From: a virus | Virus record (IMG/VR): IMGVR_UViG_3300009151_000276 | Coordinates: 1 to 29,418 of that record | Reading direction: 5' to 3' (one strand) | DNA: 29,418 nucleotides | In this document: piece by piece, positions 20,243 to 26,646 of the stretch | Layout: each line of letters opens with the position of its first letter | Numbering within the stretch: the stretch's first letter is position 1 | The notes under the pieces: generated by a model | The model's database searches: none | Told to the model about the DNA's origin: nothing | The model's input: only the letters and a program-made list of their open reading frames with translations | Position numbers and translations under genes: made by a program

Positions 20243-21133
20243 ATGCTCTGCCCACAGGACCCAGTCTTAGCCGCCTTCTTCGCCATATTCGAGGATATGG
20301 TTCCGCGTCAGCCTAAGACCCGCACGCCCAAGGCCCGACACGGAGCCATGCTGGCCCGCCTGTATGCCGGCGAGGCGCCCGCGTCCTATGTCTGCGAGCC
20401 CAAGGTCGACGGCCTACGCGTCCTGATCACTGCGGACCTGTCCACCCGCAACGTCCGCTTTGAGACCCGCAACGGCAACCCTATGCCCTCCCTCGACCAT
20501 CTGGCCGACGAGGTACTCGACCTCCTGACTGGCAAGGCTGGCGTCTGGTCTCTCGATGGCGAGGCCGTATCCGGTAAGTCGTTCTTTACTTCGGTCGGCG
20601 CCCTTCGCTCTGACCGCTCTGCCAACGATGCCCGAGTCTGGCTGTTCGACCTTCCCTCCGTGTATGGCGATTACAGCACCCGCCGTGCTTCTCTGGAGGC
20701 TTTGTTTGCCCAGTCCTACCCTACCTCCCTCCTGCTCATCCCGAGCGTCTCCTGCACCCCAGAGGAAGCCTTTGTCCGCTTTACCTCCGAGGGCTTTGAG
20801 GGTGCCATGGTGAAGGACACGACCGCCGGCTACTCTTACGGCATCCGCTCCAGGGCTTGGCTTAAGGTCAAGGACGTCGACACTACTGACGCCGAGATTG
20901 TGGACGTGGTCGAAGGCACGGGCAAGTGCGCTGGGATGGCAGGCCATATCGTCGTGCGCTGCGGGCGTCGCCTAGTCAGCGTCGGAACGGGCATGGACAA
21001 CGCCACTCGCTCTACCTTGCTCGCCGATCGCTCTCAGCTTATCGGCCAGACCGCCGAGGTAGACTTCCAGATGAAGACCCCACAAGGTTCCCTGCGTCAC
21101 CCGGTGTTTGTCCGAGTGCGCGGGGACAAGTGA
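20243..21133 (+). CDS. ATP-dependent DNA ligase
   Basis: The 296-residue protein carries the nucleotidyltransferase motifs in order: I EPKVDGLR (Lys54 is the AMP-accepting residue), the FETRNGNP segment (Arg76), IIIa SLDGE (104-107), VWLFDLP, IV EGAMVKD (186-192) and V WLKVK (206-210). A C-terminal OB fold of about 85 residues follows. It seals nicks in DNA. It is compact, like other phage ligases, and it lies on the plus strand within minus-strand tail genes. Its TGA abuts the stop of the facing gene as the palindrome TGATCA. The start could also be the ATG at 20297. Confidence 0.93.
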   Translation: MLCPQDPVLAAFFAIFEDMVPRQPKTRTPKARHGAMLARLYAGEAPASYVCEPKVDGLRVLITADLSTRNVRFETRNGNPMPSLDHLADEVLDLLTGKAGVWSLDGEAVSGKSFFTSVGALRSDRSANDARVWLFDLPSVYGDYSTRRASLEALFAQSYPTSLLLIPSVSCTPEEAFVRFTSEGFEGAMVKDTTAGYSYGIRSRAWLKVKDVDTTDAEIVDVVEGTGKCAGMAGHIVVRCGRRLVSVGTGMDNATRSTLLADRSQLIGQTAEVDFQMKTPQGSLRHPVFVRVRGDK

Positions 21134-22544: not shown

Positions 22545-23417
22545 TTAAGCGGTCTTGAGGCGGACGAGGGAGGTAGCGCGACCGACAGCGCAACCGAAGA
22601 GCAGCGTGGCGGTGACGTTCATGAAGCCTGACTGCTCCATGCCAACGAGCACCTGAACACCGAGGCCCGTGTTGGCGTCCGTAGCGTTCGAGACATCGAA
22701 GCCGGGGATGCCTTCGGAATCTGGGAGGGCCGAGGCAAACGCGATTGCGTCTGGGCCTGCCACAAATCCTGCCAAGTTTTCGGAGTTGGTAGCGAGGTTG
22801 GCAAACTGGTAGACGCGGGCACCGGCGATGATGCCGAGGTCGCCATCACGGATGATCTGAGCGCCGAGGACGTTGTTGCCAACGATGGTCGTGTCAGAGC
22901 GGAGGCCAGCGATGTAGGTGCTGTTGAGGACGGCGAAGCGAGGGCTCGGGGCCTTGGCGTCGTCGAGGGTCTTCTGGACGGCGACGAGTTCGAGGTAGGA
23001 GAGGTCGGCACCAGAGACAGTCGACACGCTGTAGTTAGCGTTGGTGATCTGAGCGTTGATGACATCCATGACCTTCTGGGCGAGACCGATGGAGGCGGTC
23101 TGGACGAAGTTGTTCACGAAGAAGTCAGCGCCGTAGTCCTTCAGGTTCGAAGGGGTGAATCGACTGGAAATCTTGTAGTGAGCCAGGGTGACGGCGGTCT
23201 GGGTGACAGTTGCATCATCGCCAGTGAGGTAGCCACCAGTCGAGAACGTAGACGCGGTGGACGTGCCGATGAGGGGCACGGTGATGCTCATGCCGGACGA
23301 GCCGGGACGAGCCGAGAAGACTGACGAGATACCCGAAAGTACGGGCAATTTGTTCTGGAGAGCACTAAGCACACCAGCTGCCAGCACACTAGGCGCGGCG
23401 GTAATCGAGTTGGCCAT
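22545..23417 (-). CDS. Major capsid protein
   Basis: The 290-residue protein sits after the head protease and scaffold genes and is followed by a strong terminator, the usual setting of the major capsid gene. Its sequence pattern fits HK97-fold capsid proteins: an N-terminal helix region, ITVPLIGTSTASTFSTGGYL, HYKISSRFTPSNLKDYGADF (E-loop and spine region) and a C-terminal A-domain with AVLNSTYIAGLRSD. It assembles the shell. I cannot place it within an HK97-fold family from sequence alone. The A-rich sequence AATAAA lies just before its ATG instead of a Shine-Dalgarno. Confidence 0.8.
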   Translation of the reverse strand: MANSITAAPSVLAAGVLSALQNKLPVLSGISSVFSARPGSSGMSITVPLIGTSTASTFSTGGYLTGDDATVTQTAVTLAHYKISSRFTPSNLKDYGADFFVNNFVQTASIGLAQKVMDVINAQITNANYSVSTVSGADLSYLELVAVQKTLDDAKAPSPRFAVLNSTYIAGLRSDTTIVGNNVLGAQIIRDGDLGIIAGARVYQFANLATNSENLAGFVAGPDAIAFASALPDSEGIPGFDVSNATDANTGLGVQVLVGMEQSGFMNVTATLLFGCAVGRATSLVRLKTA

Positions 23418-23455: not shown

Positions 23456-23893
23456 TTAGATAGAGGCCTTGATGATCGCGGAGCGATGGGCCTCAAAGTA
23501 GGCGTTGCGTTCCTTGGACCCGACAGGCAGGGCCATGAAAGCGACGTAGTGATTGACGGCCTCGGCAGGAGCACCGTCGCCCTGGGGAAGGGCAACCGGG
23601 GTGACGCCGACAGACGCGGCAATCTTAGCGGCCTCTTTGGAGGCGCTGACCTTAGTGGCTTCAGCTTCGAGAGCGGCGACCTTGAGGGCGGCGGCTTCGG
23701 CTTCGATGGTCTTGACGACTTCGGTGAGGCTGGCGATGGAGGCGTCCTTGACGGAGGCTTCGACCTTCAGGCTTTCGAGTTCCGCGGCGGCGCCGACGGT
23801 GAGCTTCTCGACGGTGGCACGGAGGTCATCGCGTTCGGCGGTGAGGCCCGAGAGGGCAGCCGAGGCTTCGAGCAATTGTTCTTCGATGGTCAT
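23456..23893 (-). CDS. Scaffold-like coiled-coil protein
   Basis: With the ATG at 23893 the product has 145 residues: a long Ala/Glu/Lys-rich coiled coil (TIEEQLLEASAALSGLTAER through EAEAAALKVAALEAEATKV) and a short C-terminal region ending HRSAIIKASI. Helical proteins encoded between the head protease and capsid genes are usually scaffolds, which guide shell assembly and are then degraded. The frame stays open further upstream but overlaps the protease gene there, so the shorter start is preferred. A fused or longer product cannot be excluded. Confidence 0.65.
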   Translation of the reverse strand: MTIEEQLLEASAALSGLTAERDDLRATVEKLTVGAAAELESLKVEASVKDASIASLTEVVKTIEAEAAALKVAALEAEATKVSASKEAAKIAASVGVTPVALPQGDGAPAEAVNHYVAFMALPVGSKERNAYFEAHRSAIIKASI

Positions 23894-23960: not shown

Positions 23961-25109
23961 TTACTCTTTGACGAGCGACCCAGGGATGACCCAGAGCTTG
24001 CAGATTCCGTTCGGGTCGATGTCGCCAGCGACAAGGCCACAGCCGCGAGGGCCTCGGTAGAAAACACAGTTCTGGCAGAGTAAGCCTTGAGCGCCGAAGG
24101 GCGATGCGGCGACGTAGTGAGCGCCTTCAGGACCTGAGCCTTGCTCAAACATACCGAAGGTCTCTTCTACGTCCATATAGCCATCAATCATCTCACGCTG
24201 ACGCGGGGAGAGGAGTGCGAGCACTTCTTCTTCGATGTCGGAGGCCTTAGGCTTAAGAAGGCTGATGGCCTTGCCACCCTTGGCGAAGGCGTGCACGGCG
24301 GTCGGAACTACGGAGGTCGAGCCAGCAAACTTAACCAGGGCTTCGGTGAAAGAGTCAGAAAGCGCGGCGACGAGGCCGTTCTGGGAGGCCTGCTTACCGG
24401 AGAAGGTCTGGCCTTCCATGGAGTCGGCCTGCACCATCTTGCGCTTCATATTCACGGCGGCCTTAAACTCGACGTGGATTTCGTCGACCGAGGCCTGAAG
24501 GTTGCTGATCTGGTCGGCGTTAAGAGACGTACCTTCGATTCCAGCCCCCTTAAACTTTCCGCTTTTTAGGACGACCATCTTGATACCAGCCATCTCGGCG
24601 GCCTTGGAATAGTCTGGGATGGCGAGGTATACGCCAATCGAGCCGACGGTCGCTGAGGGCGAGGCGACGACGCGGTCAGCAGCCGAACCAATCCAATAGG
24701 CGGCTGATGCCATCTCGGAGTCCGTGTAGGCCATGGTAGGCTTCTTGAGGTTGCGGACCTTGTTGGCGAGTTCCTCGACGCCGGTTACCGTGCCACCCGG
24801 GGAGGAGATTTGCAGGGCGATGCTGGTGACCTCGGGAGCAGAGGCGAACGCGTCGACCGCGTTGGAGATGTCGTTAACGTCGACCGCGCCCATCATCTTT
24901 TCCATCGGGGAGAGGCCCTTGCCGATGACGCCCACGATCGGGATGACGCCGATGCCGTCGACGACGTAGGGCTGCGGGGCAGTGCCGAAGAGCTGCGCAA
25001 GCATATCGGTGAAGCCAAACTTCTCGGCGAGGACAGCGTGATCCTTAGCCTTAGTCGGGTCGATGAGGAGGGGCTCGCGGCCCGAGAGGCCATTGGTGAG
25101 GAAGCGCAT
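23961..25109 (-). CDS. S49 head maturation protease (gpC-like) with four-Cys tail
   Basis: The 382-residue protein is a SppA/ClpP-fold serine protease. ISSPGGTVTG (101-110) lies near the oxyanion site, MASAAYWIG holds the nucleophile Ser135, and LKSGKFKG contains the likely general base Lys187. In lambda-like phages gpC cleaves scaffold and portal during head maturation. The start at 25109 comes four bases after the portal stop; the longer frame reads into the portal gene. The last 40 residues are unusual. CQNCVFYRGPRGC and then GDIDPNGICKLWVIPG give Cys345, Cys348, Cys357 and Cys370, a spacing and context like the iron-sulfur site of high-potential iron-sulfur proteins. Confidence 0.87.
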   Translation of the reverse strand: MRFLTNGLSGREPLLIDPTKAKDHAVLAEKFGFTDMLAQLFGTAPQPYVVDGIGVIPIVGVIGKGLSPMEKMMGAVDVNDISNAVDAFASAPEVTSIALQISSPGGTVTGVEELANKVRNLKKPTMAYTDSEMASAAYWIGSAADRVVASPSATVGSIGVYLAIPDYSKAAEMAGIKMVVLKSGKFKGAGIEGTSLNADQISNLQASVDEIHVEFKAAVNMKRKMVQADSMEGQTFSGKQASQNGLVAALSDSFTEALVKFAGSTSVVPTAVHAFAKGGKAISLLKPKASDIEEEVLALLSPRQREMIDGYMDVEETFGMFEQGSGPEGAHYVAASPFGAQGLLCQNCVFYRGPRGCGLVAGDIDPNGICKLWVIPGSLVKE

Positions 25110-25113
25110 AGAG

Positions 25114-26646
25114 TTATTCGGAAAGGTTGGCATCAGGAGCCGGGGCGGATTGGTCGACTTGGTCAACCGTTCCGACTGGCGTATTGGATGGACGGAAGAG
25201 CAGCTCGAAGGGAATACCGTAGGTCTTTGAAAGGTCTTGGATATAGACCATGTCAGAGGCCCGTTTCTGCATCTCGGTGCGGAAGTCTAGGCCGCGTTGG
25301 GCGTAGAGCTCAGACATGGAGAGGAGGCCCATCTCAACGTCGGCACGATCGTTGGCGGCTTCGCGGCCAGCATCGACCGTCACGCTCTTTGGTGTCGTCC
25401 AAGAGACGGAGGCCCACTGCGGGTCATCAGGAATCTCGCCGTCAGCGATGCCCTGCCCGATGATGTAGCCCCACGTCGGGACGCAGAACTGCTCGATGAT
25501 GATGGTCTGATACTTCGAGAAGACGCGACCAGCCTTGGCCGTAATAAGACGGACCGTTGCGCCGCCGAGCTTGGAGGAGTCGCCGACGAACTCGTAAGGT
25601 AGTACGCCCTGCGAGATGTCGCGTTCAAGCGCCTGAAGGAAACCCGTAAAGGTCGGGTTCGGGCGGTTGCTCATGTGGGAGGTCAGGGCCTCGCCTTGGT
25701 CAAGCACCAGAAGTTTTCCGCCCATCGTGTTGGCGATGGAGGAATAAGAGGAGGTGTTCAGGGCCCCGAGCTCGTTGGCCGTATCCTGGTCTAGGATGCC
25801 GCCCTGCTTCGTGATCACGCGGGTGACGTCAGCGTTGTCCTTTACGCCCTGCTTCTCGAGGGCGAGGATTTCCATCTCGTCTTGGATGGAATTGATAGAG
25901 TGCTGGAGCAGCGGAATGCCACGGGCCCCGGATGCGTACTCGTGGTCGACGACGTGCATCATGGACTGAGCCAGAATCTGGCGGTTGCCGCCGTCCGACT
26001 TGTAGACATTCACCGCTACATATTCACCATAGGGTCCAAAAACGATGCCGTCGTGGGAACCAGGGATAACCACATTCTCGTCGAGCGGGTTTCCTACGCG
26101 GTGACTTTCCATCAGCTGAATCTTGGCTTCGCCGGCGCCGTTGCGTACCTTGGCGGCGAACGAGTCACCGTCACGGATCATACCGCGGAGGAGGATAGCC
26201 TGGGCCTGATAGAATGAGAAGCGGTTCGTGATGTCGATGCGCTTAGCCTTCTCGGCGAAGTAGGCTTCGTAGGTCTCCTGCATATCAGGGGTGCTTGCGT
26301 GGGACTGCGGCTTGATGCCGTCGCCCACTCCGTAGAGCACCATGTCGGCCAGAATCTGTTTGAAGAGTCCGCTGTTGCGCTCGGCCCATCGGCACTTGCG
26401 CATCATCGCCATGCGGTTCCACGGCGTCAGGTCTTGACGTAGGTCGCCCGGTGCACGGCCAAAGATGGCACGGCGAGCGTTCGAGAACATCGTGCTCTGC
26501 CAGCCAGAGTAACCGTTGCCCAAACCTCCACCCATTCCGTTATCCATCACAGCGGCCTGTGGCTTGAGCGTAGGCGCATCAGCCGCGGCCTTGAGCACGG
26601 GCTTGCGGAGGCTGACAGTGGGGACTTTGGTCTTGCGGGGGGCCAT
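25114..26646 (-). CDS. Portal protein, lambda gpB type
   Basis: The 510-residue protein matches the lambda-type portal family in layout. After a basic, disordered N-terminus come the helical segment RAIFGRAPGDLRQDLTPWNR, ADMVLYGVGDGIKP, RGMIRDGDSFAAKVRNG and ASGARGIPLLQHSINSIQDE. A C-terminal region begins AGRVFSKYQTIIIEQF and ends acidic. Twelve copies form the ring through which DNA enters and leaves the head and where the tail attaches. It is followed by the protease gene with a four-base gap, the order found in lambda. Confidence 0.9.
   Translation of the reverse strand: MAPRKTKVPTVSLRKPVLKAAADAPTLKPQAAVMDNGMGGGLGNGYSGWQSTMFSNARRAIFGRAPGDLRQDLTPWNRMAMMRKCRWAERNSGLFKQILADMVLYGVGDGIKPQSHASTPDMQETYEAYFAEKAKRIDITNRFSFYQAQAILLRGMIRDGDSFAAKVRNGAGEAKIQLMESHRVGNPLDENVVIPGSHDGIVFGPYGEYVAVNVYKSDGGNRQILAQSMMHVVDHEYASGARGIPLLQHSINSIQDEMEILALEKQGVKDNADVTRVITKQGGILDQDTANELGALNTSSYSSIANTMGGKLLVLDQGEALTSHMSNRPNPTFTGFLQALERDISQGVLPYEFVGDSSKLGGATVRLITAKAGRVFSKYQTIIIEQFCVPTWGYIIGQGIADGEIPDDPQWASVSWTTPKSVTVDAGREAANDRADVEMGLLSMSELYAQRGLDFRTEMQKRASDMVYIQDLSKTYGIPFELLFRPSNTPVGTVDQVDQSAPAPDANLSE

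Follow-up and report, generated by a model that had tools for sequence, protein, structure and literature searches.

In an uncultured aquatic phage (IMG/VR record IMGVR_UViG_3300009151_000276), the head-maturation protease ends in a four-cysteine tail that is real, resembles the high-potential iron-sulfur proteins (HiPIPs), is mobile and is optional among sister phages, and the interpretation given to it in an earlier, sequence-only reading is supported in part. We consider it probable that this tail is a mobile accessory module, most likely of a [4Fe-4S]-binding kind, which would reach the prohead attached to the protease. The whole stretch of DNA analysed, 29,418 nucleotides long, is called the window in the following.

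The window contains genes for terminase, portal, protease, scaffold and major head protein in that order, and the module lies between the protease core and the scaffold gene (Table 1). Peptidase_S49 of Pfam is recognized in the protease with 95.2 bits (E 5e-27) against a cut-off of 24.9, and phrog_53, 'head maturation protease', matches it at E 2e-56. Thus, both the S49 domain above its cut-off and the portal-protease-scaffold-capsid order that mark the S49 head-maturation proteases are found here. The reading frame (23961..25166, minus strand) is open up to 25166; alignment with relatives, in which the MRFL start is conserved, fixes the true start at the ATG at 25109, giving the protease length that the sequence-only reading had implied. 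All residue positions follow this 382-residue numbering, including those of Ser135 and Lys187, which we take to be the catalytic residues by analogy with the Ser/Lys dyad of SppA-type S49 enzymes. The role of the coiled-coil gene as scaffold is suggested by its position. An ATP-dependent DNA ligase gene (20243-21133, plus strand; phrog_114, E 9e-63) is located on the opposite strand inside this structural gene block.

Table 1. Protease gene of the window, its parts and its neighbours
Feature	Positions	Strand	Basis
Major head protein	22545..23417	-	phrog_267, E 7e-12
Coiled-coil scaffold gene, Nu3-like position, 145 aa, MTIEEQLLEA...	23456..23893	-	ORF list; conserved in relatives
S49 head-maturation protease gene with C-terminal module	23961..25109	-	382 aa; Pfam, phrog_53, MRFL start
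HiPIP-like four-cysteine core, residues 328-376	23982..24128	-	79% mean pairwise identity; HiPIP matches
Cys370 codon, presumed ligand 4	24000..24002	-	Invariant in alignment A2 (59 sequences)
Cys357 codon, presumed ligand 3	24039..24041	-	Invariant in A2 (59 sequences)
Cys348 codon, presumed ligand 2	24066..24068	-	Invariant in A2 (59 sequences)
Cys345 codon, presumed ligand 1	24075..24077	-	Invariant in A2 (59 sequences)
Predicted amphipathic helix LALLSPRQREMIDGYMDVEETFGMF, residues 297-321, first half of the module	24147..24221	-	Motif common to S78 proteins; 61% identity
Variable linker, protease core to module, residues 261-292	24234..24329	-	31% mean pairwise identity; dN/dS 0.54
Presumed catalytic Ser135 codon (24705-24707) to presumed catalytic Lys187 codon (24549-24551)	24549..24707	-	Invariant columns, alignment A4
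Portal protein, lambda family	25114..26646	-	Pfam Phage_portal_2, E 1e-34

The translated frame ends in ...GAHYVAASPFGAQGLLCQNCVFYRGPRGCGLVAGDIDPNGICKLWVIPGSLVKE, with the cysteines spaced C-x2-C-x8-C-x12-C as first noticed. This spacing is kept in 219 of the 220 ORFs that bear the domain and occurs 12 times in 2.0 million residues from other ORFs; it is therefore not a product of chance. Together with the preceding helix (LxPRQxxxxxxxExIxExFGxFDQ), the four-Cys core makes up a module of about 80 residues.

When the 54-residue tail alone was searched against the PDB (177,635 sequences), the top two matches were both HiPIPs, namely 3h31 (E 0.0037) and PioC (E 0.028), and in the alignment the Cys spacing of PioC is identical to that of the tail. 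With a profile of 23 relatives the match to 3h31 improved to E 1.5e-6, and a further four HiPIPs were retrieved at E 0.004-0.24. With the larger profile (A2), 3h31 was found at E 7.5e-6, but the other HiPIPs were mixed among disulphide-rich disintegrins (E 0.03-0.13), leaving 3h31 as the only strong PDB match; the profile of a second phage subfamily (A7) retrieved by itself no HiPIPs from the PDB. A phage-profile scan of 84,980 species genomes returned five loci, four of them short MAG contigs coding for the phage-type module (L144 being of the S49 type) and the fifth a true cellular HiPIP from a Myxococcota MAG (Pfam HIPIP, E 1e-11). Eight cellular HiPIP loci, representing seven different HiPIPs of which six were newly gathered with PF01355, were all placed by the phage profile ahead of every other ORF among the 298 ranked. 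In hhalign, the phage profile matched the seven cellular HiPIPs at E 1.9e-8 over 45 columns including the HiPIP-family Tyr, for example with phage HYVAASPFGAQGLLCQNCVFYRG aligned to cellular GYVAASPNAEQRCGNCQLYTAG.

How far this likeness depends on the cysteines bears on a rival explanation, in which the four Cys form a structural zinc or disulphide knuckle that stabilizes a small domain contacting portal, scaffold or capsid, the HiPIP likeness being convergent. Masking the Cys indeed removes most of the HiPIP signal, with one HiPIP alone still scoring weakly (E 0.02-0.04); zinc sites are frequent in small four-Cys domains, and disintegrins, which are among the weak PDB matches, would suit the disulphide version. 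However, the match is also lost when the Cys stay in place and all other columns are permuted: none of 20 trials scored above 6.9 bits, against a best score of 25.5 for the unpermuted profile. Outside the Cys, the HiPIP pattern is followed by the Tyr upstream, the aromatic residue behind the CxxC and the Trp at the third position past the fourth Cys, all shared with HiPIPs, and the top PDB matches are HiPIPs, not zinc proteins. The tail spacing also has no second CxxC as in zinc ribbons, which are disfavoured on this ground. We thus regard a zinc or disulphide knuckle as unlikely.

The HiPIP-like reading has its own counter-evidence. Most phage members tested score 12-16.5 bits with Pfam HIPIP (PF01355), under the gathering cut-off of 22, and HIPIP is unlisted for the window protein in a Pfam search at E 1. 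AlphaFold2 and Foldseek give no fold evidence: the domain model has a low-confidence pLDDT of 58 and a single, unrelated Foldseek match (E 10), and in the full-protein model (pLDDT 63.6) the helix at 302-318 is likewise modelled at low confidence. Since the scores lie below the Pfam cut-off and the model is too weak to define the fold, we call the domain 'HiPIP-like' instead of a certified member of the family. The known HiPIPs serve as exported electron carriers and come mainly from phototrophs and iron oxidisers, whereas this domain forms the C-terminal end of a head protease whose translation, by eye, has no evident signal peptide, and no redox partner is in evidence here. On the other side stand the four Cys in the order CxxC..C..C with HiPIP-like spacing, invariant in 59 sequences, and the significant similarity to accepted HiPIPs by both the profile search and hhalign. 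The likeness to HiPIPs proposed in the sequence-only reading is supported, better than had been expected, by the sequence statistics and by the Tyr, aromatic and Trp positions beyond the Cys, but stops short of the Pfam threshold. On this evidence, the four-Cys domain is very likely a distant homologue of HiPIPs, and it is likely to bind a cluster.

Relatives of the module are coded on at least 579 IMG/VR stretches, where it is placed C-terminally on S49 proteases, N- or C-terminally to the unrelated S78 protease, or on portal/protease proteins. Its helix motif is held in common with the S78 proteins (LxPRQ...E.I.E.FG.FDQ), and module, S78 protease and capsid are even fused into single ORFs of 906-1052 residues (L093:52-3207, L128:4254-7061 and L130:4269-6986). 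Between the S78-type phages and the window, the module is about 55-75% identical, with BLASTP similarity of TerL, portal, scaffold and capsid being absent or marginal (21-24%). The second subfamily, found on portal/protease proteins like that of the Actinomycetia phage DSL-LC01, aligns with the first at E 5.9e-15 (hhalign), and the four Cys and the upstream Tyr are kept in the aligned members of both. Judged from these comparisons, the module is mobile, turning up in many phages from the environment on head proteases that are unrelated to each other, and missing from close sister phages. It appears to be nearly absent from cultured phages: tblastn with two single-sequence queries against 50,697 phage records found DSL-LC01 alone, a search that more divergent copies may escape.

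Several unusual arrangements were also seen. Both subfamilies occur in tandem in a 223-residue ORF (L215:3854-4522), and a stand-alone protein of 117 residues consists of helix and four-Cys core, with no protease recognised around it (L216:3821-4174). In S78 proteins, a phrog_2859-like domain is found N-terminal to the module. DUF5824 and further small domains are present on S78 or related head proteins in L070, L072, L126 and L143, a hint that there are additional accessory modules.

To avoid bias, the relatives used for scoring presence or absence were gathered with the S49 core only (n=80). With cores 70-84% identical, 11 of them have the module and 69 do not; the four Cys, whose presence in close homologues the sequence-only reading had made a touchstone, are thus invariant wherever the tail exists, but the whole tail is missing from most relatives. 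In nearly all tail-less relatives the protease stops directly after the core (..ALxSF*), and no copy of the module was found elsewhere on any of 19 tail-less contigs, which may be incomplete. The scaffold mostly begins 14-49 nt (as aligned) beyond the stop codon of the protease, whether the module is there or not, and in most tail-less phages 22-36 nt separate protease stop and scaffold start. The slot measures 31-45 nt when empty and 376-439 nt with the module, which lengthens the core-to-scaffold distance by about 350-400 nt. On a tree of the cores the tail state changes at least four times, three of these being forced by well-supported branches; a tree of the domain, based on few columns, has the S49 tails mostly clustering together and gives no indication of repeated acquisition from different sources.

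The dN/dS ratio is lowest in the four-Cys domain (about 0.10), followed by the protease core (0.33) and the linker ahead of the domain (0.54), values drawn from non-independent pairs with synonymous sites near saturation. Mean identity in the S49 relatives is 79% for the four-Cys core and 56% for the protease, in a set that was picked by the tail and is biased in its favour. By its dN/dS, the four-Cys domain is under purifying selection. Such strong constraint, combined with covalent attachment to the protease in the S49, S78 and portal/protease contexts, would be in keeping with a redox or iron-status switch, in which oxidation or loss of the cluster alters protease activation or the timing of head maturation. 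We nevertheless find such a switch quite improbable, as the module is missing from close relatives with near-identical cores, can stand on either side of the protease domain and follows a variable linker, and exists as a stand-alone ORF without a protease (L216). The assembly switch suggested at the outset is likewise unlikely as a general role, because 69 of the 80 close homologues have no tail, and it is rejected as the main reading on the same count.

The slot is also used by other domains. A phrog_2859-like domain (..GLAWHAEGKSGDGVTD..AWALWGG..) precedes the scaffold in 20 tail-less relatives, and both it and the module are present in four; it was seen in L242 (3654-4463), in about 20 other tail-less relatives and also in L012, L034, L063 and L088. 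In L265, L271, L301, L302 and L303, a HAD/PNKP-phosphatase-like domain (Pfam Hydrolase_6, Acid_phosphat_B; phrog_415) occupies the same slot as the window's module, in frame with the scaffold start. Sister-phage slots holding a HiPIP-like domain, a phrog_2859-like domain, both, a HAD/PNKP-phosphatase-like domain or none raise one specific version of the accessory role, namely that the junction is a loading dock for interchangeable head-packaged proteins, perhaps delivered on infection, of which the HiPIP-like unit is one cargo and the phosphatase-like and phrog_2859 domains are others. We hold this to be doubtful: the HiPIP-like unit is fused to the protease but the other modules lie ahead of the scaffold, mature lambda heads have lost most of their scaffold, and neither retention of the modules in mature heads nor their ejection is in evidence. 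It also seems unlikely that these phages use the junction of protease and scaffold generally as an exchangeable slot for loading small functional proteins, namely an Fe-S redox protein, HAD phosphatase-like and phrog_2859 domains, into the prohead as cargo acting in the virion or on infection.

The mobile accessory module that we favour would consist of an amphipathic helix and a minimal HiPIP-like domain holding one [4Fe-4S] cluster on its four Cys, the cluster being supplied by the host Fe-S machinery. In lambda, the protease C and the scaffold Nu3 assemble with the portal into an initiator complex within the nascent prohead (PMC3224144). By analogy with gpC, the module, being inserted at the junction of head-maturation protease and scaffold, would be brought into the prohead by its tether to the protease, at low copy number and outside the catalytic machinery. 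Its nature as an add-on is suggested by the sister phages without it and by a slot that may hold other modules, and an accessory role by the closely related phages that assemble in its absence. It might serve to place a compact, cluster-stabilised unit in the prohead interior or, alternatively, to fit the complex of protease, portal and scaffold to a given host or condition.

Our literature search found no paper on a HiPIP in phage heads or in virus assembly. A strongly constrained, mobile HiPIP-like unit, borne on three kinds of head protease and optional in sister phages, constitutes a natural presence/absence experiment, from which the role of Fe-S sites in phage morphogenesis may be learned, a point that concerns lambda gpL as well (PMC10721106). 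A slot with interchangeable modules may, in addition, indicate cargo loading of heads.

Compared with the lambda gpC/Nu3 system, an S49 protease with a nested scaffold, the window has the same S49 core and the same portal-protease-scaffold-capsid order. However, the C-terminus of a lambda-type gpC is the scaffold itself, while in the window the scaffold has a gene of its own downstream of the module; lambdoid gpC (phage 434 examined) has no four-Cys tail, as the sequence-only reading had supposed for lambda. The 'capsid maturation protease' of DSL-LC01 (OQ999401, WJZ48514) ends in a second-subfamily copy in which Cys and Tyr are retained, but it is a portal/protease-type protein, and the domain is unannotated in the record. 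In a neighbouring CDS of that phage (L081:38-772), labelled 'high potential iron-sulfur protein', the cysteines follow another pattern (CGNC..C..C..C..CDAW), and neither Pfam nor PHROG gives a match; the DSL-LC01 publication does not mention iron-sulfur.

With the HiPIPs (PF01355; PioC, PDB 6xyv, and 3h31), the module shares the Cys order, the upstream Tyr, the aromatic after the CxxC and an aromatic three residues after the fourth Cys, and with PioC (54 aa) also the exact Cys spacing and a similar size. It differs in its fusion to cytoplasmic phage head proteases, with no export signal seen, and in having its own conserved helix ahead. A [4Fe-4S] domain is known in a phage morphogenesis protein from the tail-tip proteins lambda gpL and RcGTA gp13 (PMC10721106), where a four-Cys Fe-S domain forms the C-terminus, as the four-Cys module does here; there, in contrast, the Cys are at positions 173, 182, 205 and 212, and the protein belongs to the tail instead of the head and is present in the mature virion (PMC10721106).
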